A stretch of 64,000 nt of DNA from Dichotomocladium elegans (Eukaryota > Mucoromycota > Mucoromycetes > Mucorales > Lichtheimiaceae), in contig JAIXMN010000013.1 of the NCBI GenBank assembly GCA_025716815.1, forward strand, positions 248,001 through 312,000, in the 5' to 3' direction. The notes beneath the pieces were generated by a model, which searched no databases, was not told the origin of the DNA, and saw only the letters and a program-made list of their open reading frames with translations. Position 1 is the stretch's first letter. Every line of letters begins with the position of its first letter. The position numbers and the translations under genes are program-made. Shown here piece by piece: positions 3,587-58,450 of this stretch.

Positions 3587-4110
3587 ATGAAAAGCAGCAA
3601 TCACCGCTCTGCAACGATAATCCAACCACCTATTGACCCAAGCTCTCTATCCTGCTCTAATGCCGCAAGTCAACGTCGGAAGAACTCAAATGCATCAGAA
3701 GTCATGTCGCTGTTGTTTCGAAGGCGTGGGTCAAATGCTTCCTCCTCGTCTCAAGAAGAGAAATGCCTGTCTGCCTCTGAGATCCAGAAAATGTTGGATA
3801 ATGCCGAAGATCTCTATGCTTTCGCACTTGATGAGGTAAGAGGTCTAGTCGCAGGGCTCCTTTATCTCAATAACAAGCTCACGCCGTGCTCTAATTATTT
3901 AAGCTCAATTTTGCGTCGGACTCATGGGGATCTTTATACTATGAAGGAGACCAGATTTCGGCGCGTGAGGCGATTGATAACTGTACAAACGCTTTCATGC
4001 AAGTCTTGCACCAGACTCAAGATCATCAACGCTCTCAGCTGCACGCATCTATCACTCCAAAGTTGGCTAGGCTAGAAGAGCAATACAATGCATTACCGCC
4101 AATCCCTTGA
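3587..4110 (+). CDS. Small protein of unknown function, two exons
   Basis: Exons 3587-3835 and 3904-4110 flank a 68-bp phase-0 GTAAG...AAG intron and give 151 residues. The first half is serine- and asparagine-rich and probably disordered. The second half looks folded and mostly helical: SASEIQKMLDNAEDLYAFAL runs across the intron into NFASDSWGSLYYEGDQIS, followed by a helix ending LARLEEQYNALPPIP just before the stop. The way the acidic/aromatic segment continues across the splice supports the model. The frame is open further upstream, but that part translates to leader-like residues, so the ATG at 3587 was chosen. I do not recognise the family; it has no signal peptide or membrane segment. 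Confidence 0.65.
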
Positions 4111-5420
4111 AAAGATCTTTTCCCGTTTTCTACCTCTCCTTTTTTTTGTGCTCTGTATATATAATAGCTTTATTCTGTCCTTGTCCTCTTGTGTGCTTTC
4201 CATCAAAAAAAAAAGTTCATGCCCGCTTATAGCCCCAATATATCGCAATATATTGTATAATCCCTTCACTATCCATGGAGCACACTCGTTACCACATTTG
4301 GCACAAACTGCATCTACTTACGTGTGCTTCTCATTCGCTCGCCAGCACAGTCAAAAGAACCAATAAGTTGCCATCGATTACTGTTTAATCATGGCTCATG
4401 CTGAAGAAAAAGACATTTGGTATAATTTCACGAAGAACATGTCATACATAGTATGCATTTACCCTTGCAATTGTGCATGTGCATATGTACAGTATTATTA
4501 TCAAAGAACAAAGAATAATTCGAGATATTCGTCAGTTAATATCTGAACCTTCTTTATATGACATCACTTAACCGTGAAGGCTACCCAAATGTGCAATTAC
4601 GGTATCAATTGCGGAAGAACTAAAGAAAATAGGTTGGGATTGTTGTTGAACATTGAAGTCCAAGACTGCCCCGGAAGTATTGGAGGGAGGAGGGGCGCAG
4701 AGAGACAAAAGTGACTTCAGCAAATCCAAAGGCCTATTTCTCTTCGCTCTCCCGAAGCTTCATTCAAATAAACAAGGTGTATCTATTAACGGTCGCAAAT
4801 GTAATATTTCCGCAGCCTGAAGCAAGCCAGTCTGGCAGATCCATAAACCATGTTGAGGGACAAGAAAGAAAGAAAGAAAGAAAGAAAGAGACCGTATTTG
4901 GTCAAGGAAGCGGCTGACATTTATGCACAGCAGTCGCCACTATTTATCTACAGTGGATATGGATGTTCCGATTATGTGCTGTTGTGTGTACATACCAATG
5001 GTTTTGAACACCTTGGCAGTATCTTTTGGCTTCATGGCACCGACCTCAAATAGGCTACGAGGACAACAAGTATATCAATCCTATAGGTAATGTATATCTG
5101 GAAGACGCATGACTTTCTGGGTGCCAAGAGGAAACTGTTCCAAGGAAGCTCGTTCATTGGCTCTACCAATCTAGATCCAGCAGGCAATTTGTACCGAGCA
5201 CGCAGTAAATACTGTAGAAGCTGAGACATAGCACATAGCATACAGTGCGTCATCACCGGACTTAATTTACATTATCGTACCGTCTCCTGACAGACAATTT
5301 CTATGGTTTAATCATGTTACTGTAAGACCTGCACAATGTATGGTGACGTTCTTTGAAGGGTCTGGATGGCGCACAAAGGAGCATTGACGATACCACATCA
5401 TAAAACAGCAGAAAATTGTA
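4111..5420. other. Gene-free spacer with a GAAA repeat
   Basis: No convincing coding frame was found. A GAAA tetranucleotide run occupies about 4864-4889. The right edge is the target site of the MITE at 5421. Confidence 0.5.
4864..4889. repeat. (GAAA)n microsatellite
   Basis: Six or more tandem GAAA units in intergenic sequence. Confidence 0.85.
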
Positions 5421-13259: not shown

Positions 13260-13880
13260 CTCGAGGCACTTGAGTTAGACTGCTATCGGTGTCTACAGAG
13301 GATCCGGAATATTAAAAGATTGCAGAATGGAACAAAGGTAACCCTATTGCCTTCTACTTTGCTCTTGACAACTGACCAAAACTGCTCAATTGGATCGCGT
13401 TCAGGCGAGCAGGGGGGAAGATAAACACATCAATATCATCAGTCCTATGGATAAATGCATTATCCATTCTAAAATAACGCTCTCATGCTCTTCATCGAGA
13501 ATACGCGAACCACTCCTCGCGCCAGGTTTCTTAAAGATACTGGAAGAGTCCTTCTCGTACTGTAGCTCCCATCGATCGGCTGAACGAACATGGATTCCAT
13601 AGCAGCTGATGCACTCAGGGCCTTCTGAAACACCCGCTTGAAAAATCTGACCTTGTGTTGGTCAGTGTACGCTGTGTAACTGTACTTGATCCCCGCTTCT
13701 TTCATGTACCCTTTCGCTTGTGAATAGATGTGGTAGTTATCTTTGCAAGATACGCTACTCGGATATTTAGTGCGAGAACAAAGGGATTGCAGAGAGCACA
13801 TTTCTTCATTAACGACCTGATGTTTGACCATCTTTGTAGAAGAAGAAATTGCTCATTTGTGAATGGAAAAGTGCATAAAA
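13260..13880 (-). pseudogene. Internally deleted IS630/Tc1-type transposase
   Basis: Read on the minus strand this starts with MVKHQVVNEEMCSLQS and continues through the helix-turn-helix part AYTDQHKVRFFKRVFQKAL, matching the copies at 27.0 and 53.4 kb. It then jumps straight to the end of the catalytic domain, including PIEQFWSVVKSKV, the segment that holds the third acidic DDE residue in IS630-type transposases. Compared with the 53-kb copy, about 550 bp of the catalytic core are missing, and the join at about 13,467 lies in a shared AATGG. It cannot encode an active transposase. The outer ends are too decayed to place exactly. Confidence 0.8.
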
Positions 13881-16479: not shown

Positions 16480-16700
16480 TGATATGCACATCAGCAAGTT
16501 CAGGGTTTTCCCTGCAAGATAGACTACGCAGATATTCTATGTGAGGACAAATGGATTGGAGGGAATACATTTCCTCATCAGAGATATAGCCCATAGTTTC
16601 AGGGCAGCCATGTTCCCCGACGACGTCACCTTGCTCATCTTTGTAAAAAAAAAAAAAAATAGATTACTCATTTCAGAATGTAAAATGGGTATAATAGAAT
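16480..16700 (-). mobile_element. 5'-end fragment of an IS630/Tc1-type element
   Basis: On the minus strand this aligns by eye with the region upstream of and at the start of the transposase in the 53-kb element: shared blocks include ACATTCTGAAATGAG, GAGGAAATGTA and AGAATATCTGCGTAG. Only this 5' portion remains. A poly-A/T tract interrupts it near 16650. Confidence 0.65.
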
Positions 16701-18671
16701 AGACAAAAAGCTGAACAACATTTATAAAGATGGAAGCTCATTTTTGCGATATCTTTCGTCATGCATGCGATATTTGTTTTGTCATCACGCGTAAAGATTG
16801 TTGCACCTGCCATTGCAAGTCGTTAGATATTTTCAGAAGTCTAGTAGTACAATATATTCTCAGACAGAGTGTTCATCTTAAGAAGACATTATGATGGATG
16901 AAATCGCACAAAGCAATGGTTATGTAACAAGGGAAGACGCCTGCAACGAACTTCTGGATAGTCAAACGAGATCCGTACGAAGCAGATATCCGCATCAAAG
17001 TCACTATAATTCATCCAATGATAAGACTGATAAGGCCTACAAAGGGCTGTATGTGCTAGATTGCAGTAAAGACAAGTCTTTTATGGCAGCGCTCATATTG
17101 CATTAGGCCATGGAGCATCAGTATCAGCATAGAAATCCCGAATTAGCGATCCTCTGTCTGCCGCTACGGACTGATCTGCCCTCTTTCTTCTCGTGGCTGC
17201 TATTTGGAGGATCTAAAATGTAACATTTAAGATATGAGATACTGCAACTGCTTCAGGCATTGTTATTGGTCTTGCTCTTGATTTCAATACAGCACTGTAT
17301 ATACTAAATCCAACGTCAGCCATGATCGAACAAACTGGATTCATTTCCATGAATCGATTAGAGCGACGGACTTCCGCCAGCGCATCCAACACTAGTGCTT
17401 CCATGTTCTTGTTCGAAGATGCAGCATGTACCCGAATTCTTCCAGCCTTCCACTACTTGATATGCCATTTAGTCCCATTTCTATGGTCAAAGTTTTCTGA
17501 GCATTATTTCAAGGAATCTTGAGCTTGAATCAGTCCGTGCAAGAGAGCGCCATTGCACTTTAATCCAGGTGCTTTGATCTGAATTTGAGTGATTTTTCTA
17601 CATAGTAGTAAACCCAAAGTTACTATTGCAAGATATGCTTTATATGTATATATAGTATCTTGTGTCTGAGAAAGCAGACTGATAGGCAGCGCAGCCCCAT
17701 ATGTTCAGTATACCCACGGTTCATCAGCGACATGACACTGTTTCGTTTCCATAATAGAATGGATTACCCATTAGAGGATGCGAAGTATATCAAGAAGAAA
17801 AAATGGTTTAAAGTGCTCGAAAGGCTGGTGTTTTATCTGCATAGATTCACGACTTCGCTTACCGAATACAGTGTACTGTATACCGAACGAGTGAACACAT
17901 GTATGAAGGGATCGGCAAGGAACGCAACACAGGAGATACGGATGCGTATCCAAATTAGCAATGATAGATAGGCTGGAAAGGTTCTATTACTGTTTTTGTT
18001 CATGATAGGCGAAGATTACTTTTTTTGAAGCACAAAATCATGACATTTACATGCTAGAAGTCTTTTGTGCACGATTTCGGCTAATGTTAACTTTAGTAGC
18101 AATCAAACTATTGTGACCTAGCGTTACTTGTTATGAAATAACTTTCGATCTCAATCCCATTGCGGTTTTCACAAACAATCAAGGCTTATACTATATTTCC
18201 GTTCAAAAACACACGCACATAAACTGGACTCAAGCTTGTGGAAAAGATAGCGTGGCGGACATCCGGCCCTAATATATGGTATTATGTAATTGAAGAAGAA
18301 ACGACGTGGGACTGATAAGGGATCAGCGACCCCTGAGTATGCTTCTAGTGCAACATCGGCTTTTAGGAAGTTTTCAAACGGTCAATAGGAAAAGCAAAAT
18401 TTAAAGTTTGGTACAGAAGCATTGGGCAACAAAGAAATGAATGCAGGCCTCCGTCGCAGAAGGCGGGTAGGTAGACACGCAGGACCCTTTAAACAGAAAC
18501 CTTGAGCTCCGGAGGAATTGGTACATCCTGTGCCTGGTGGATGGCGTCCAGGCTCGTTTGTTCGGAAGACAAACTTTTCCGTCTGATGTTTTGATCCGGG
18601 GATTTTTTTTTTTTTTGCAGTCTAGCTACGTATACCTCCACTCCGGCGCATGTTTGTCTTATCCTGTCAAG
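16701..18671. other. Gene-poor, probably decayed repeat sequence
   Basis: Several open frames of 60-100 codons occur on both strands (for example 16891-17106 plus, 17213-17404 minus, 17660-17971 plus), but none carries a recognisable domain or splice support. Their mixed, stop-riddled character suggests degraded transposon or gene relics. Confidence 0.4.
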
Positions 18672-26678: not shown

Positions 26679-27687
26679 CACTGTTTTCCCTAATACTGGT
26701 CGGGGTTTGCCCAGAAAACTTTACGCGTGATGGTATTCTTTACTTGTATACCCATCTTACCTTCTGGAACGAGCAGTCTAGTTATTCAAAATACGGTGGG
26801 GCCGTGTCGTTGACGAGGGTGGCTGCCTTAGCTCTATAAAGTATATCGCTGATGAGGAAATGCACGCTCTTAAGTCCATTTGCTCTCATACAGAATATCT
26901 ACATAGTCTATTTTGCATGGGTGACCCTGATCTTGTTGCTCCGCATGTATCAAGCGAAACGCATATATTCAGATGAATGAACCAGACTTTAAGCGAGGCT
27001 ACACAGCGTGCGCCAAAAAGTCAGATTTTTCAAACGGATGTTTGAGAAGGACTTGGGTGCATCAGCTGCTGCAAAACAGCTAGTAACCCACCTTCGTTCG
27101 GTGCAGCGATGGGAATTAGAGAACGGAAAGACGCCGACAGTATTTATAAGAAACATAGACGCAGAAGTCATTCACGTATTCTCAACGAAGAGCGTAAGAA
27201 TGCTATTTTAGATTGGATTGATGAGAATCCATCAATTGTCCGAGAACAACTGATACAGAGATTTAAGGCTCGGTTTCAGCCTGTACATAGAAATAACGAT
27301 GCAAGGTCCAAGATCATCCTGATTTGGTACCATTTTAACATGAAACCATCATGGTATGGCTCAAGGAAGGGACTTATGCAGTAGTTACAGTGGCATAAGA
27401 TAAATATAATCATGGGAGCAATGCGGCATTAGTCACTATTAAATATTGTATGAGACTCCCACAGACACCAGCCAAAATGAAATGATTATCACCATGTGCA
27501 CACCTGGATATGTTGGTGCAATCTGGGTGGTAAAGAAGTGTGATTAGTAGTTTCTGTTGACCAACAAAATCCATTTACTTACTGATGCTATGATTTCATA
27601 CAATTTTATGCGACATTTTCTCTTGGTACCTTGAACGACATTATTTTTATCTTGTACGTATACGAATTTTATTTTGTAACGTGTCAC
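26679..27687 (+). mobile_element. Decayed IS630/Tc1-type element, about 1 kb
   Basis: Left end CACTGTTTTCCC and right end GTAACGTGTCAC are each next to a TA. Inside, the bases encode VRFFKRMFEKDLGASAA-type helix-turn-helix sequence, then VFIRNIDAE-like and NEERKNAILDWIDENPSIV in a shifted frame, then stop-interrupted remains of the catalytic domain. Most of the DDE core is deleted after the RFQPV segment near 27285. Non-functional; related to the copies at 13.3 and 53.1 kb. Confidence 0.75.
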
Positions 27688-31133: not shown

Positions 31134-31714
31134 CACCATTTTCCAAAATTGAAGTCGTGTCCTAGCAGTTCTGTACTCGCAAGATCCCAAAACTCGAAGT
31201 CGAGTTTTGCTCAGAAATCTTTACGCATGGGGACAAAACACCGAGGAAGATGATGAATCTTGATATTGATTTGCTTTTTACTCGGGTCTGACACCTTGTG
31301 CCCTTTGTAAGCTGTCCAACCGCACTCGTAATTGATGAACCATGGAAGGGAATTCAGAAAGTATATTGGACCATTCGCTGTGGCAGCGATTTGGCTGCCT
31401 TTGGGCAGGGCTTTTCCTTTGTTTGGTTGCTTTTGTTTTTACCAAGAGCCATATGCTTCTGGAGTTGCCTGTCCTTGCTCCTGCCGCTGCTCAATGATGC
31501 ACCATCCATCCTCCGCCATGGGAATTGCTACATGCACATCTGGAAATGCTTGGTGTAATCTGGGTTGGTAAATCAGAGTATTAAGGAGATGGCTTAATGA
31601 TTTTCTGTTCATTAATGAAATCTACGTATTTATCTGTTGATACGACAACTTCGTTTGTATTTTGAACGTCATTATTTTTATCTTGTACACGAAATTTATT
31701 TTGGAAAAATAAAA
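31134..31714 (+). mobile_element. Non-autonomous IS630-type element (581 bp)
   Basis: The left end CACCATTTTCCAAAATTGAA resembles the left end of the Fanzor-bearing element at 53,080, and both ends abut TA (31132-31133 and 31715-31716). The subterminal block GTTTTGCTCAGAAATCTTTA also matches that element. The right end contains ACGAAATTTATTTTGGAAAA. The interior differs from transposase sequence, so it is a deletion or capture derivative mobilised in trans. Confidence 0.75.
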
Positions 31715-33919: not shown

Positions 33920-34175
33920 GTTTTGTAGTAGCAGATGCACTCAAAGTCTTCTCAAAACATCAGTTTCAAAAAGATAGCATTGTCTTTGTTAGTGTACACT
34001 GCCTAGTCGGTTTGAGATCTACTTCTCTCATGTTTATCCTTTCAACTGGAGTTACGTGTGTCAGTAATCCTGTGGACCCTCTTCCGAGATATACTATGCA
34101 AGTATTCGATGTGAGAGTGAATACTTGAAGAGAATATACTCCATCAACAACCTAATTCACAGGTTCCCTTATTTG
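33920..34175 (-). mobile_element. Highly decayed IS630-type 5' fragment
   Basis: Read on the minus strand, this preserves the order of the element's 5' part: an ATG-proximal block, an AGTATATCTCGG-like stretch equivalent to the AGAATATCTGCG of other copies, the spacer with repeated TGACACACG-like sequence, and the helix-turn-helix region ending near TGCATCTGCTACTA. No open frame survives. Boundaries are approximate. Confidence 0.45.
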
Positions 34176-50858: not shown

Positions 50859-52852
50859 ATGGATAACCTCAGCTACTCTTTCGATCGTGTTCATATCGGT
50901 AGCAATAACCGCAGTGATCTGCCCCTCAGCGCCCGTGACTGTCTTGTCAGACTCTTGGATCAAGTCCAGGACGATAATATCAGGCACCGTGCCCAGGCAG
51001 AACTCCGGCAGCTGCTAACTAACCACGAGCAGCTCATCAGTGTGCTTCAACAACGCACCCAGGCTGTCGAAAACGAAAACAATCAGTTGAAGACAATGAT
51101 CGCCGATCAGCAGCAACGCTACGAGAAAGCCGTACGTGAAATGCAATTCTTTAAGAAGAAGTATGACATGATAAGCAAACAATCCCGGAGAACATCCATC
51201 AGTTCAGAGTCCCCAAGCGAAATATCTGCACACTCCAACTCTCAGAATGGTAATGGCAACATCAAAATGAACGGCAGCACCAGCACCAGCAGCGTCAACA
51301 GCCATCAATACCAACCAAACACACCCCTTCCGTCAGTACCACCACCTCAGCAACATAGCCTACCGCCTGTGCCTGAGCCTGAGCCTATAAATTTTCCTTT
51401 GACCCCGACAAGTCCGCAACCGTCCGTCAATTCGGGCGACATTTCTCATCTTCTAAAACCCTCTCGATCTTCTTCCTCATCCACGGCGTCCTCCAACGTT
51501 CAGCATTATCAGTCTTTCTGGTCAAACAATCTTAATAATGCCCCACCTCTGCCTTCCAACGCTTCCATTCATTCTTCGTCGTCTTCATCTGCTACTGCCT
51601 CTCGATACCAGCACGCGCCTAGCAACAGTATCTATAGTTTCAGCAGCACAGAAGGTTCAGGGCCATATCAGCAATATCAATCTATTCAGCCGCTACCACA
51701 GCAACCATTGTCGCCGCCGCCACCTCCGCCATCTTTCCAGCAACCTCTGTCGCCACCGCTGTCCGTGCCCTCCTATGCTTCAGTACCGAGACATAATGCA
51801 TCTGTGTCGTCTGCTTCGGGCCCGGCTTCTTACGGCAATTTCAATGTGGTCCAGCAACGCCGCGTAGACCCGCTCATGTACGGCGGGTCTGACTCGCTGT
51901 GGGATACGATCGCGAAAAACAAGGGCAAGGACCCTGCTGTGGAGAAAATTGTCTCGGACTTCTTGCGGCGTGGCGGTTCCCCGAATGCTGCCAGGCAGAC
52001 ACCATCGGTCAAGAGCGTCAAACTCGGGTATGGCCTTGTGCATGCAGCAGTGACAGTGAAGGCGTTGAGCACACTTGATCTCCTGTTGCAACAAGGTGCA
52101 AATCCAAATGCCATGACTCTTTCTGAGGCCATAGAGGATAAGGTAAAAAATCGAGTTTATCCATACCGCGTTGGACACCTGGAAGGGGTTTTTTTTTCTT
52201 TCTTATTTACTGATACCAATATCCTCTTGATTTGCAGGTGTCGCCCTGTTATCTCGCAGCGAGAATCGGCTGGCTTCCCGGTCTTCAGCGCCTTGTCCAG
52301 GCTGGTGCAGACCTTATCCAGGCTCGTGGAGAAGGTACGCTCCAGAAGACGGCCCTTCACACGGCTGCAGAGCATTGCCACGCTGCGGTGGTCGAGTTTA
52401 TTGTAGGCTACACGGAAGGTGCTCTCAATCTGGAATTGGACAGCCAAGGTGCAACGGCCCTTCATTACGCAGCGCAGTCAGGCCATGCTGATCTTGTGAG
52501 TTTCCTCATCCGGTCATGCCACATTCCAGCCGATCAGGTCGACAATCGCGGTGAACAGCCGATTCATTGGGCTTCCCGCGCTGGATGTCTCGAGGTCGTG
52601 AGCTTGCTGGTCGAGCGTTTCGGCGTGGACTGCAACGCCTATGTTCCCAAGAGTGTGCCTACACCTCTCGAACTTGCCAAATCTAACAAACACAAGCGGG
52701 TCATCGATTATCTCAAAGGCGCTGGTGGGTTGTCGTCAAAGAAGATGGATAAGAAACGAGAAGAGGAAGAGTTCAAGAACTCGTCTTCTTCGAAGCACTT
52801 GCAGTCTACTCTGGCGCGCAACGGTCTCCTAGGGGACGACGGTTTCTTTTGA
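50859..52852 (+). CDS. Coiled-coil and ankyrin-repeat protein, two exons
   Basis: Exons 50859-52142 and 52238-52852 (95-bp intron, phase 0) give 632 residues. Residues about 40-105 form a coiled coil (QAELRQLLTNHEQLISVLQQ, NENNQLKTMIADQQQRYEKA). Residues 110-330 are disordered, rich in Ser, Pro and Gln with polyproline runs that could bind SH3 or WW domains. After MYGGSDSLWDTIAKNKG the C-terminal half holds ankyrin repeats: YLAARIGWLPGLQRLVQAGA, TALHTAAEHCHAAVVEFIV, GATALHYAAQSGHADLVSFL, QPIHWASRAGCLEVVSLLV and TPLELAKSNKHKRVIDYLK. Probably a scaffold or adaptor; partners unknown. The tail is charged (KKMDKKREEEEF). Confidence 0.88.
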
Positions 52853-53079
52853 TAGGCAAACCGGAGAGGGTCCGCACCTGTACACCTAAAAGCACCCATT
52901 TTCGCACACACGCACACGCACACTCTTTGTCATGTTCTATCTCTGTTCTTCTTCGCAGCCTCTTGCTCTCCACCGCTCATATACATATATAAATGGAAAA
53001 AGCACCCATCCACAAACACACACACACACACATATGCACAACCCTTCATCAATACCACTTTCATTCAAACTTATACATA

Positions 53080-53100
53080 CAGTGTTTTCCAAAATTAAAA
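53080..53100 (+). repeat. Left terminal inverted repeat of the Fanzor element
   Basis: Starts CAGTGTTTTCC directly after TA; the same TTTTCCAAAATT core starts the element at 31134. Confidence 0.65.
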
Positions 53101-53285
53101 TTCGTACCCCAGCCAGTTCTGAAGTCGCAGGATTACAAAAATAGAAGTCGTGTTTTGCCCAGAAATCTTTACGCATGATGACAAAGCAAATGTCGCAATA
53201 CACGGCGAAATATGTCGCTCAAAAAAACTTGGCAAATTCATCTCTACTCATTTACATTCTGAAATGAGCAATCTATTTTTTTACA

Positions 53286-54299
53286 ATGGTCAAGGCCATG
53301 TTGATGAAGAAATGTACTCTGCAATCCGTTTGTTCTCATACAGAATATCTGCTTAGCAAATCTTGCAAAGATGACTTTGAGCTTACTGCCACGCACATTC
53401 CCAAGAGAAAGGATACAGACATTCGGATGAAAAAAGCGGGGATCAAGCGCAGTTACACAGCATACACTGACCAAGACAAGATCAGATTTTTCAAACGGAT
53501 GTTTGAGAAGGTATTGAGTGCATCAGCTGCTAGCAATCCATGTTCGTTCAGCTCAGCGACGGGCATCACAGTACGGAAAGGACCCTGACAGCATTTTTAA
53601 GAAACGTAGAGGCAGAGGTCGTTCATGTATTCTCAACGAAGAGGATAAGAGTGTTATTTTAGAATGGGTTGTTGAGAATCCGTCAATTGTCCTAGAGCAG
53701 CTGATGGAACAACTGCTCCAGAGATTTAAGAGTCTCAAAGTATCCAAAACGACGCTCCATCGATTTATGAAAACCGAATGCAATTTGTCATTGAAAATGG
53801 CTCGGTTTCAGCCTGTAGACAGGAATAGCGATGCAAAGGTCCAAGAACGCCTTGACTGGGTGCGCAGACGGGACAGGACCGACATCGACCTTAGAGAAAA
53901 CTGCGTTTTTCTTGATGAGTCTGGATTCCATATTAACATGAAGCGCAGCATGGCATGGTCCAAGAAAGGGACTTGTGCAGTGGTTACAGTGCCGAATGCA
54001 AGAGTAAAAACAGCTACCATCTTGGGAGCAATCTCGGCATCAGGCATCATTAAATGTAGCTTGAGACTCCCACGACTACTAGCCAAAGAAGAAACAGAGC
54101 GGGGCAGCCCGCAGCTGCAAGCAAGGAAACTATCACTGGACATTATTATCTCAGCTTCCTTAAGGCTACCATGGATGAAATGGATAAGCATGAACATCTG
54201 AAGGGACATTATTTGGTAATGGATAATGCACCCATTCATAAAGCTGAGGATATTGATGTGCCTATCTTCCACTCTCACCGCGCCCAGGAGGAGGAATAA
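53286..54299 (+). pseudogene. IS630/Tc1-type DDE transposase, frameshifted
   Basis: The best-preserved transposase of this family in the window, still broken. Pieces in order: a helix-turn-helix part (AYTDQDKIRFFKRMFEKVL), a frame change near 53525 where about ten bases present in the 27-kb copy are missing, a second helix-turn-helix segment (EDKSVILEWVVENPSIVLEQ, SKTTLHRFMK), and the DDE_3-type core with FLDESGFHINM (first Asp) and AWSKKG. A second frameshift near 54090 precedes GHYLVMDNAPIH (second Asp). The frame ends at RAQEEE before the PIEQFW block, which the 13-kb copy retains, so the third acidic residue is absent. No active protein is possible. Confidence 0.85.
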
Positions 54300-54573
54300 G
54301 GTATCTTATTCCTAGGAATATGAGTTTCAGATTAGAGAGTTCCCAGGGTAAGTGATATGAATACATGGTCCGTAGTTAGTATGTCTGCGTTGCACACTCC
54401 TATCTTTAAATTGTTAAAGTTTGGTATCCGCGTGGCTACATTGTGATGAGCACAATTGTTCCATCAAAAAAGTTGATGTATAAAGGAAACAAGGATGAAA
54501 AAATGCAGTAGTAGAATGTTTCCCTAAAAAGGAACATGGATACAGTGCATTCATTGCATTTGCCAAGGAATGA

Positions 54574-54738
54574 ATGCTTGACATTGAAGAGGAGGGTGAT
54601 CTTGAACTCATCCACCAATTAGAGGGCCGGTTGCAGCGGATGAACCAGGAGGCCCTGAGCAGTGCCTACTCCTCACCACGCTCTCCGGTAACTGTCCAAC
54701 AGGCTGAAATCGATAACCTATATAACATTTCGTTGTAG
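54574..54738 (+). other. Short ORF between transposase and Fanzor
   Basis: A 54-residue frame, MLDIEEEGDLELIHQLEGRL onward, with helical, coiled-coil-like character, then a Ser/Pro linker and a short helix ending NLYNISL. It could be the remnant of a longer transposon protein. No family recognised. Confidence 0.3.
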
Positions 54739-55046
54739 TGAGTATTTTTGCTTATCATATGATATGCACTTCATAGTACCGCATCCACGCAGGTTGGAAT
54801 GGGGACCTTGATTTACTATAAAATAATGAGGTTCGACCAAGCCGTTTTTCTTTACCACTTGCCTATTCTAAAACCCGTTACAAACACACTCGTATTACAC
54901 ATCTCTCTCACCTTACACAATTCATACAACCCAAGGCGAAGAACACAAAAGCACATTCCGACATTAGACGGTAAGGCTTCTGGAATAAGACATGACTAGA
55001 AGATTTGTGCTAAGAGATAATATCACAGCCCTCTACTGGTGAAGAC

Positions 55047-57225
55047 ATGGAACAACCTGTCGACCCCACCAGGAGGAGGGGCGTAAACCCTGCCCAGCCC
55101 AACCTCAGGCCCCCTGACCGTATGTTAGGTGTCAAGACCTCTATACGAGGCATCCGCTGGAACCCCGCCTACCGCCAACCGTTGATGGACTTGGTCGCTG
55201 TTGTCCATGCGACAACAACCCATGCGTACAGCTTCGCCAAGTACATCTTCCTACGTAAGCGCGAACGCGAGCCGGACTTCAACCTCCAACAGTTCCTGCA
55301 CGAAAAGTTCTTCTCTGAGGTGTGGCTCTCCATGCTCGACAAGCGAGTTCGTCCAACCCGGGGGATTTTCCGGCGAGTGCCGAGCTCTGATCGGCGAGTT
55401 TTTGGAGGATTACCTCGAGGCCACCCAGTACCAACGGCCGCAACTCAAGAACTCCCAGCAATGCTCTGCGTTCGAAGGTAAGAAGATGCTTGTTGCATAC
55501 TGCAACAATATCAACATGCGGTTCGGGCAGCACCTTCGGCGCGCGGTGAATGCTCTCCTGAACATTCGAGAGCGGAAAGCGGCGAGGAGACGTGAACCGG
55601 ACGCACTCGGCTGGACCGAGGAGCAAATCCGCCAGGATATTTACGACACCATCACTCGCCATGCCACAGGCTTCAAGCTCGCCATTGCCCGCCGAGGTGT
55701 GCGGAGGGATGACATTCCGGCGGAACCAGCTTTTCTCAGGCAAGCGTTCGACCAGATCCAACCGGTCTTGGATGCTTATCCCCAAGGGTACCAGTTCCAA
55801 AAACAAAGCATCTACTACGACGCCAAGGCGCGTTCATCCAACCACTTCCGGCCGTTCATAGAGCTTGCCTATGTTTTCCAACGCAATGGTCTTCGCAGCT
55901 TCCAATGTTTTCCGCTTCGCCGATCCTGGGCCCCTTGCTATATGCAGATCGACACCACGATTCTTGTCCAGCATATTCTAAAGAGGCCAAGACACGACAT
56001 CAGCCAGAAGTTGGCTCTGTGGGGAGAGGTTGTGGACCTCGACTCTCGTGCTTTCAGACCCCAGGAAGGCGGAACGATCGAGTTCCATGGCACAATCCAT
56101 ACCGGTGGAGTAGGCGTCACTGTTTTCAAGAGGACGAATAATCAACGACCATCATACGGAGCAAAGCACCGAGGAGTCGAGGATGAGACCAATTATGTCA
56201 GCATGCTAACATCACAGAAACACCAGAACATTGCTGGTAGGTGCGTCACCGTCGACCCTGGGAGGAGGGACCTCCTTTTCTGCGTCTCAGAGAATTCCAG
56301 GCCGGAGCGAGGTGCCCGTCTGACGTTCCAATACACCAAACCTCATCAGGACAAGGTGCGCAAGACCAAGAAGTACCGCAGGTTATTGCAGAGGCTCAAG
56401 AATGAGGAACCTGAAGTCGTGCATGCCGAGGAACGCATGGCTGGCGAACATTCCCGCAGCTTGGATCGTGCCGATTATGACCGCTTCCTGCTTGTCCGGT
56501 CCCAGGTGTCCCAAGTTCTCGAGGACTTCTATGCGAATACTGCCACCCATAATGCCGATCCCCAACCTCTTTTCCGAAAGCTCCGTCTGTCGTCGTACAT
56601 CAACAAACAACGAGCAGATGAGAAGCTGAGGGACGGTCTGATCAACAAGTTTGGCCCCAACGCGGTATTTGTGATGGGTAAGTGGTCTGCCCCGAACACT
56701 CGATACCACTAGCCAATCCGCGGTGTTGGATTCCGGCGACTTCTCAAGCAAGGCGAACGTCGCTTTGATGTATACTTGATCGACGAATTCAAGACCAGCA
56801 GATGTTGCCCCGCGTGCGAGACCGAGAGCCTTTCTATTTTCCGGAGGGTACCCAACCCACGCCCCTATCGAAGAGCCGAGAATCCAAACGTTATCTGTCA
56901 TGGCCTGCTACGGTATGAAGCCTTATTCGCGGAGGAGTTTGATAATCTAATGTCGCTTATTTTGTGCAGATGCTCAAATCAAAACTGTACAGCAGGCATG
57001 GCAAAGGGCGCTCCTCGGCAGCGATTGTGGAACCGTGATATGGCGGCCTGCCTGAATATGATACATATTCTCAGGAGTTTTCGGGCCGTTGGCATGGTCC
57101 CGGAAAGGTTTCGGCGAGCACCTGCGGGTGGTGACAGGCGCCTAGCAAGAAGGGCTAGATCACCAGAGCCCGACGAGCGAAGAGTGAGACGAAGAGGACC
57201 AGGACGAGGTCGCCAACAGCGATGA
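55047..57225 (+). pseudogene. Fanzor1-like RNA-guided nuclease (TnpB homologue), two lesions
   Basis: Eukaryotic TnpB relative; family members use a guide RNA to cut DNA with a RuvC domain. Exons 55047-56912 and 56970-57225 (57-bp intron) would give about 706 residues once one base of shift near 55,335-55,365 is allowed for. The N-terminus contains VKTSIRGIRWNP and VHATTTHAYSFAKYIFLR. RuvC-I is CVTVDPGRRD (Asp403), RuvC-II YLIDEFKTS (Glu580) and RuvC-III LWNRDMAACLNM (Asp645): all three acidic residues are kept. The zinc site is split as in Fanzor1: CPAC (587, 590), then HGLLRCSNQNC across the intron (623, 628). The C-terminus is Arg-rich. Lesions: the frameshift at or near a five-G run, and an in-frame TAG at 56710-56712 between TRYH and PIRGVGF. 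It is the right-hand passenger of the IS630-type element. Confidence 0.9.
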
Positions 57226-57425
57226 TTTTCCGTGTCGGTTATCGCCGGCACACATCTGGATACCTTCGGGGTAAGTTAAAGTGTTGGGGAAGGGATAATA
57301 TTTTCTGGTGACTAAAATCTCTCAACCAATCGATGTGAAATCCTTTCCATCTTGATACGCCATTTTATTTATTTTCATGCGACATAATTTTTCCCCACCT
57401 GCGAAATTTATTTTTGAAAATAAAG
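57226..57425 (+). ncRNA. Candidate guide-RNA (omega RNA) region of the Fanzor element
   Basis: In characterised Fanzor loci the guide RNA comes from the end of the gene and the adjoining 3' non-coding DNA, with the guide reaching to or past the transposon end. Here 200 bp separate the Fanzor stop from the right terminal repeat. The last 110 bp resemble the right ends of the other family copies, so at most the first 90 bp look private to this element. This is an inference from position; no folding could be run. Confidence 0.3.
57405..57425 (-). repeat. Right terminal inverted repeat of the Fanzor element
   Basis: Reads AAATTTATTTTTGAAAATAAAG up to the TA at 57426; similar to ACGAAATTTATTTTGGAAAA at the right end of the 31.1-kb copy. 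Confidence 0.55.
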
Positions 57426-57483
57426 TACACAAAAATGGGAGCCTATAATCATACATATAACTTTTTTTATTGATAGTTATATA

Positions 57484-57506
57484 ATATATATATATATATA
57501 TATATA
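57484..57506. repeat. (TA)n microsatellite
   Basis: An uninterrupted TA run of about 11 units lies 60 bp past the right end of the Fanzor element, within the 300-bp gap before the next transposon relic. Confidence 0.9.
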
Positions 57507-57724
57507 AACAGATTGTATTGCTGGTCTCGCATCCCTTCAACCACCACGATAGACCCTTCTTTGGACTTTGTTGGATTGCCGCATATCCTCTGAAGATCGA
57601 GTCAAAAACAGGCGATACACCAAATTTGCGTGCCTTTGTGTAAATCCACCTCTATGTAGAACAAAAAAAAAAGCAAGGAACGTCGGTATTTCAGACCTGC
57701 TGACCGTTTCCCTTTCTTCATACC

Positions 57725-58450
57725 TCGACATTCTAAAATAAGCAATCAATTTCTTTACGATGGCTGAGATCATGATACTGACGAATTTGGCTGCCCTGGG
57801 TCTATGGGCTATCCATGTTATTGGTGACCGATTCCACTCGCTTGAATCTGGTTATGGCCACAGAGAATATCTGCGTATCGTAGTCGATTTGCAACACCAG
57901 CACTGACATTTATGATTATGCACTGATTTCAAAGAGAACGAACACGTGGAGATGAAAAGATGCGTAGCTCTTCGGTGTATTATGCCGCCTATGAACAAGA
58001 TCAGCGGTTTCAAGAGCTAATACGTTCGAGTGCACCAGCCGCCGCAAAACAAAAGCGTACGTAGAGACAGGGATCGTTCACGTATTCTCAATGAAGAAAA
58101 CAAGGATCCTAGGTTAGAATCGGGATCAGCCAGAAATCGATATATTTTTCTAGACCAGCTCGCATTATGGGATTTATATGATGCTCAAAGACTTCAAATC
58201 GACGCCCTAACGAACTGTGAAACTTGTCCTTCAAAAGAGAGTCGATTTCAGCATGTAGAGAGGAACAGAGATGGCAAGTTTCAAAAGCGTCTCCATGGTT
58301 GATATTGATTTTGGGGAAAAAAGGAAGTTTTACTTTCGTTGATGCATGTGGACCCCATATTAATATGAAATTCAACGTGCCATCTTCAGCGGCTGTAGTA
58401 CGTACAAATACCAAGTTCGGTAGTGGACAAAGCTCGTATTGATATATCTA
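57725..58450 (+). mobile_element. Decayed IS630/Tc1-type copy
   Basis: Begins with TAAGCAATCAATTTCTTTACGA-type sequence equivalent to the transposase leader of the 53-kb copy. It goes on through GAATATCTGCGTATCG and a short ASAAAKQ-like block, then RDRDRSRILNEENKD, the second helix-turn-helix leader, and later SFVDACGPHINM, a corrupted first-Asp segment. Large parts are missing between these. Non-functional. Confidence 0.65.

Follow-up and report, generated by a model that had tools for sequence, protein, structure and literature searches.

The window analysed here is a stretch of 64,000 nucleotides from Dichotomocladium elegans (contig JAIXMN010000013.1, positions 248,001 to 312,000; within contig C28 in the numbering used below), and the unit at 53,080-57,425 is, judging by its sequence, a decayed copy of a Tc1/mariner-type (IS630, DD34E) transposon family carrying the RNA-guided nuclease gene Fanzor1. 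A preliminary description of the window had placed it in a fungus, with which 54 Zn2Cys6 matches agree, against 0 of 14 control genomes. The genome searched is an assembly of 39.4 Mb in 122 contigs. As first described, the unit has imperfect inverted ends and lies between two TA dinucleotides, 53,080 being the first base past the left TA and 57,425 the last before the right one; the comparison with other copies bears out both bounds. Some 750 bp separate its two genes, the last transposase frame ending at 54,299 and the Fanzor ATG standing at 55,047. The terminal inverted repeats (TIR-L and TIR-R), the genes and the predicted RNA elements, including a presumed target-adjacent motif (TAM), are arranged as follows:

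53,076-53,079, plus strand: CATA, made up of CA and the left-hand copy of the duplicated target TA; predicted TAM (17/17 family A left ends; TAM of SpuFz1)
53,080-53,104, plus strand: TIR-L, imperfect (alignment to the right end; start shared with other copies)
53,268-54,299, plus strand: remnant of a Tc1/IS630-type DDE transposase, with broken frames and without the third catalytic residue (Pfam DDE_3 and tblastn)
55,047-56,912, plus strand: Fanzor exon 1, broken in the window copy (ATG at 55,047; frames; match to solved Fanzors)
56,913-56,969, plus strand: GT-AG intron of 57 nt inside the split zinc site (its removal joins CSNQNC to the rest)
56,970-57,225, plus strand: Fanzor exon 2, with CSNQNC and RuvC-III NRDMAACLNM, through the stop codon (frames; match to solved Fanzors)
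57,226-57,427, plus strand: candidate omega RNA scaffold (Fanzor stop to right TA; a region that families A, B and D all conserve at this end)
57,232-57,251, plus strand: hairpin within the candidate omega RNA, its arms showing compensatory changes (cross-family covariation)
57,401-57,425, plus strand: TIR-R (end alignment; right ends of other copies)
57,426-57,427, plus strand: right TA of the target duplication and predicted last bases of the RNA scaffold (copy comparison; a family B insertion whose paralogous empty sites hold one TA)
57,428-57,447, plus strand: right flank, predicted to serve as the guide of an RNA that reads past the right end (by analogy with SpuFz1)

The 3' gene is a Fanzor1, an assignment made by sequence match to Fanzors of solved structure. 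The motifs previously read from it (DPGRRD, LIDEFKTS, CPAC, CSNQNC and NRDMAACLNM) are all present, and splicing out the intron reunites the zinc site that had been described as split. The window copy is broken twice, by a length difference near 55,360 that shifts the frame and by a nonsense codon at 56,710-56,712, where the copy L007 (contig C79) reads through. L007, in which the counterpart of the intron measures 68 nt, is open across 706 spliced residues, and its matches to PpFz1 (E 2e-128) and SpuFz1 (E 1.1e-55) span the catalytic motifs; no other PDB sequence matches at E ≤ 0.001. Its spliced protein also contains the published Fanzor1 motif, D-X(125,275)-[TS][TS]-X-X-C4 zinc finger-X(5,50)-RD (PMC3627910, used in excerpt, as are all papers cited here), in the form of D403 (of DPGRRD), T583-S584, the cysteines to C628, and R644-D645. 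The profile search that had been proposed as a check gave less: no Pfam model reaches its cut-off on Fanzor (the best, Cas12f1-like_TNB, at E 0.02-0.04), and it is the matches to solved Fanzors that carry the assignment. PF26935, which occurs in 20 of 22 protein relatives of Fanzor, is not reported by Pfam scans for the query Fanzors. The closest named relatives are proteins of Mucor and Rhizopus, with identity up to 47-48% over most of the length.

The 5' gene, first described as a DDE transposase, is of the Tc1/IS630 type and accompanies a TA duplication, but its frames are broken and its match stops before the third catalytic residue. Two pieces of it match Pfam DDE_3 below the cut-off (E 8.3e-06 and 1.2e-05), and a tblastn search with an intact relative ends at residue 393 of 475, before E418. 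The intact relatives, L029 and L030, are 475 aa long, 99.8% alike and free of stops, and lie between ends of the same type as those of the window unit; L029 matches DDE_3 at E 1.8e-30, and the catalytic residues of both are read as D281, D383 and E418, a DD34E spacing taken from the sequence. In all eight near-full copies of family A, that of the window unit (L001-L007 and L010), the match ends at residue 376-409, so that E418 is missing from every one. As far as the copies examined go, family A thus appears unable to move itself. The preliminary picture of a working transposase-Fanzor pair at this locus is not supported, both genes being broken.

Searches of the genome with the whole unit and with its Fanzor piece gave 76 and 92 results, respectively, which are numbers of matches rather than loci, and lower bounds. 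Among the near-full family A copies, L005 is split in two and L006, L007 and L010 are internally deleted. L002, L006, L007 and L010 have the same first and last element bases as the window unit amid different flanks, from which it follows that 53,080 and 57,425 are the ends of one insertion, a single mobile unit as had been proposed; the search for further copies with these ends also yielded the intact Fanzor of L007. These two ends are also brought together in the deletion derivatives L019 and L020. With L021, these derivatives form a class of about 1.2 kb, in which element positions 1-890 are joined to 4011-4346 (in L021 only to 4338). Copies with clean ends have TA on both sides, as expected of IS630-Tc1-mariner elements. 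The clearest view of an unoccupied target comes from L110 (C36:201,040-201,230) and L111 (C45:205,400-205,590), paralogous empty sites of one family B insertion (L060/L079), which hold a single TA between the same flanks; the flank is therefore genomic and the duplication is TA. Both empty sites read TGTA, and the filled site TATA. The empty-site paralog of L046 is ambiguous: it has a gap of 39 bp and differs at the target duplication.

Further related elements share the genome. Family B is represented by at least 40 left ends and at least 40 right ends, and in its members L046 and L047 all that is left of the transposase is an N-terminal piece. Family D, 3.46 kb long, has six near-full copies and many partial ones among 119 matches. 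The element on contig C57 (C57:1,657,823-1,664,696; 6,874 bp) is complete, with an intact transposase and intact Fanzor frames, whose intron borders were judged by eye; its terminal inverted repeats, like those of the window unit, are imperfect. L008, L009, L012 and L013, in which the transposase is cut off near element position 743, resemble the window unit unevenly, at 90-94% in the Fanzor half and 78-82% in the left half except for a 53-bp stretch. An exchange of modules or otherwise different histories of the halves, or different selection on each, may possibly account for this pattern.

The region between the Fanzor stop codon and the right end contains a hairpin whose loop recurs, with co-changing arms, in families A, B and D as well as in L023, L024 and L032, in each case at the right end. 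An exact search finds the loop at 25 of 30 right ends; two of family A (L043 and L014) have a one-base variant, and no loop was found in L036, L037 and the short fragment L119. Over 13 rows, with near-duplicates left out, 93.3% of cells are paired, 21 double changes occur and the covariation score is 0.604, each a value reached by 0 of 500 shuffles, with slid controls far below; two further measures are weaker, being reached by 131 and 15 of 500 shuffles. RNAalifold over the full candidate RNA recovers the 5' hairpin and, besides it, a single weak stem, and no Rfam family matches 53,000-57,600 at E 1 or below. The hairpin marks a candidate guide (omega) RNA, retained in derivatives without Fanzor, since the junctions of L019-L021 keep the region that contains it. 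One further locus, L129 (C34:132,000-138,000), carries a badly broken Fanzor with an A-like REC motif beside a B-like right-end hairpin, and is possibly a chimera of families.

The flank motif lies at the opposite end of the elements. In family A and its closest kin, all 17 left ends that could be read have CA before the left TA; of these, 15 come from fetched loci (L001-L004, L006-L008, L010, L013, L018-L022 and L043, which is the L005 locus) and two from pattern matches (C1:1,413,234 and C52:2,584); L009, L011, L012, L014-L017 and L025, with unreadable left ends, are outside the count. Genome-wide, the A end pattern occurs at 10 places, and the identical 10 match when CA is prefixed. In family B the dinucleotide is instead TA, at 36 of 37 left ends (20/20 and 14/15 in two sets, plus L046 and L047), the exception being L096 with GA; of three B-like loci fetched for other reasons, L125 and L126 have TA and L130 has CA. 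The C44/C57 group has CA at six of six (L028, L029, L030, L037, L038 and L040), and family D has TA at the three readable TIR-L ends (L123, L124 and L131). In the window as a whole only 8.5% of TA dinucleotides follow CA and 8.7% follow TA. The constraint is one-sided relative to the element: in family A the left -2 position is C at 15/15, against G at right +2 in 2/16 (p 5e-7; L003 is omitted from the right-end count, which with it is 2/17), and in family B the left -2 position is T at 36/37, against A at right +2 in 14/22 (p 0.001). Between families A (15) and B (36) the difference at -2 has p 3e-13. All these tests assume that the insertions are independent of one another.

The best explanation of the whole, and probably the right one, is that the Fanzor1-carrying Tc1/mariner family retains those insertions that have a TAM on the proper side, through RNA-guided re-cutting. 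Fanzor would bind the RNA read out through the right end, with the right flank as guide, as in SpuFz1, whose RNA includes 14-15 nt of flanking sequence (PMC10432273). The TA past the right end belongs to the scaffold if CATA is the TAM. The target would be the same locus without the element, where CA and the single TA would form a TAM ahead of the guide match; repair of the cut empty allele would copy the element in, so that insertions with the TAM on the proper side would be kept and others lost over time. Tc1-type excision leaves a footprint, which would part the TAM from the guide match, and the likely target is accordingly an allele that never held the element. The flank motif fits such re-cutting of an empty site, a role that the preliminary description had presumed for donor sites; that the cutting keeps the transposon is a further step, which we infer. 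Given the seemingly dead transposase of family A, the transposase for movement would probably be supplied in trans, by the C57 element or similar relatives, with L029 and L030 as intact possible sources, and Fanzor would be kept because it helps its own carrier.

In some of the elements Fanzor is inverted. In L123, L124, L127, L128 and L131 the RNA-bearing TIR-R end lies upstream of Fanzor and on the opposite strand (L128 is counted among them for its gene order; its RNA is like that of L125). The C57 element reads CATA, TIR-L, transposase (plus), Fanzor (minus), RNA (plus), TIR-R and TA, and a tblastn search at E 1e-3 finds no normally oriented Fanzor remnant beside its RNA. The fetched family D copies contain frame breaks; the family has nonetheless moved as a unit, since L123, L124 and L131 share both ends amid differing flanks. 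In D and C57, then, Fanzor points away from the right-end RNA, and the TAM-like flank stays opposite the RNA. It is possible that in these elements the TIR-R RNA is not the partner of Fanzor at all, the true omega RNA lying 3' of the inverted gene or being borrowed from other elements. In the literature examined, omega RNAs are found 3' of the gene and share its strand (PMC10432273). Such RNAs diverge fast, and a motif scan could miss one. What makes this the less probable account is that the core motif is found only on the TIR-R side and other strand (the five loci above and C57), and that the flank motif remains at TIR-L (3/3 in D; CATA in C57), whereas the D TIR-R flanks vary (TA, CG, TG, TC and AA in L123, L124, L127, L128 and L131).

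Several observations weigh against RNA-guided retention. The B-like locus L130 has CATA; among relatives without a detected Fanzor, L024, L026, L027 and L032 have CA (with TG next in L032) and L023, L031 and L034 have TA, and a YATA motif at elements of this kind would be explained equally well by transposase preference. The whole 202-nt candidate RNA folds no better than shuffled sequence (z -0.59), and the contrast in constraint between the two genes, taken up below, is not significant. A candidate cause of the C or T in the flank motif, the residue aligned to SpuFz1 R291, was also rejected: it is R in family A (CATA) and M in family B (TATA), but also M in C57, which has CATA. That alignment was made by eye, with a numbering offset of 394 deduced from D383/N385.

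The main rival for the motif is accordingly a target preference of the transposase, with Fanzor playing no part in the survival of copies. In all lineages read, Fanzor-less ones included, -1 is A and, except in L096, -2 is C or T, and family A shares CATA with the C44/C57 group, in which the transposase is intact, so that motif and transposase lineage are not separated here. A transposase that targets TA is expected to see both sides alike, and the one-sidedness of the motif therefore counts against this explanation. Spu-1 elements, moreover, keep CA although no transposase is reported between their repeats in the excerpts used, and the TAM of their Fanzor is CATA (PMC10432273). A pure target preference is, on balance, unlikely.

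A quite different alternative is that Fanzor is a neutral passenger from which the element gains nothing. Many Fanzor copies, that of the window unit among them, are broken. Across the 21 pairs of seven family A copies, which are not independent, the ratio of nonsynonymous to synonymous changes (dN/dS) is 0.45 for Fanzor and 1.12 for the transposase fragment; for private changes it is 0.58 in Fanzor (p 0.003 against neutrality) and 0.86 in the transposase (p 0.61). Transposase comparisons with L005 and L018, spoiled by frameshifts, were not used. Fanzor thus evolves under constraint and the dead transposase neutrally, while the direct contrast between the genes on private changes falls short of significance (p 0.30), a point in the passenger's favour. 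In family B, 16 of the 92 Fanzor-piece matches lie in the same uninterrupted 639-aa frame, which is weak evidence because the copies are young. With the constraint on the gene set against it, the passenger account is improbable. Finally, the idea that 53,080 and 57,425 belong to different, nested insertions, suggested by the imperfect end repeats, is refuted by the comparison of ends across L002, L006, L007 and L010, with their different flanks, and the junctions in L019 and L020, and is practically ruled out.

The other copies in the window had been taken for cargo-free sisters that might reveal how the cargo was acquired. They are old fragments of transposase or end sequence, at most 418 bp long and 75-92% alike (13,464-13,869; 16,513-16,799; 26,850-27,482; 31,139-31,237; 33,923-33,996), and the window offers no such view. 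Just 3' of the unit, at 57,742-58,302, frames judged by eye resemble the remnant of an older IS630-type transposase; the DNA search with the unit gives no match there. On the other side, an ankyrin-like frame (52,214-52,852, also by eye) ends about 225 bp before the insertion. In L025, three stretches of about 370 bp (~1,310-1,678, 2,482-2,852 and 3,973-4,339) that share an inverted end motif and TA interrupt or adjoin the family A Fanzor, which looks like three insertions of a different short family flanked by TA.

Taken together, differing motifs, RNA retained without Fanzor, a flipped gene and constraint make this one genome a natural experiment on the benefit of Fanzor to a transposon. Should the motif prove to be the TAM, TAMs could be read from insertion sites alone, which would support RNA-guided retention in eukaryotes; if Fanzor works with a divergently encoded RNA, that RNA need not derive from the Fanzor mRNA. 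The composite reading, that Fanzor and its guide RNA need not share a transcription unit, that the genome records the family-specific TAMs CATA and TATA, and that Fanzor is selected beside a dead transposase, is put forward tentatively, with doubt slightly outweighing confidence.

That mariner elements carry Fanzor1 and that CA precedes the left end is already known (PMC3627910; PMC10432273). The two family-specific flank motifs, the inverted gene with RNA and motif sides unchanged, and the constraint beside a dead transposase go beyond the literature examined, and may be described elsewhere; among the listed matches of a search on orientation terms none contains the word Fanzor, which is weak evidence of the inverted arrangement being unreported. 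The closest likeness is to Spu-1 of Spizellomyces punctatus, which has a Fanzor1, inverted repeats, CA at the left, a CATA TAM and a right-end RNA, and whose Fanzor-less "ghost" elements retain the RNA region (PMC10432273). Spu-1 is, however, about 2.1 kb long and, in the excerpts used, without a transposase found between the repeats (PMC10432273), whereas here there are transposase-bearing relatives, a second family with TATA and one family with Fanzor inverted against the RNA. The closest solved relative, PpFz1 of Parasitella parasitica (PDB 9cf0), shares DPGRRD and the same zinc and RuvC-III layout, but its reported TAM is ATN, and its extra FRI domain lies between the matched stretches (PMC11423790) and has no counterpart in the family A protein. 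The known Fanzor1-Mariner elements likewise have a Mariner-like transposase and TA duplications, some carrying Fanzor only; they differ in coming from viruses, Hydra and other hosts, and the excerpts used describe them without a flank motif, guide RNA or orientation switch (PMC3627910). In the TnpB system of IS607, a fixed base by the right end is part of the RNA scaffold rather than of the guide, and the right TA here would match that arrangement, although IS607 is a bacterial serine-recombinase element rather than a TA-targeting DDE transposon (PMC10711439).

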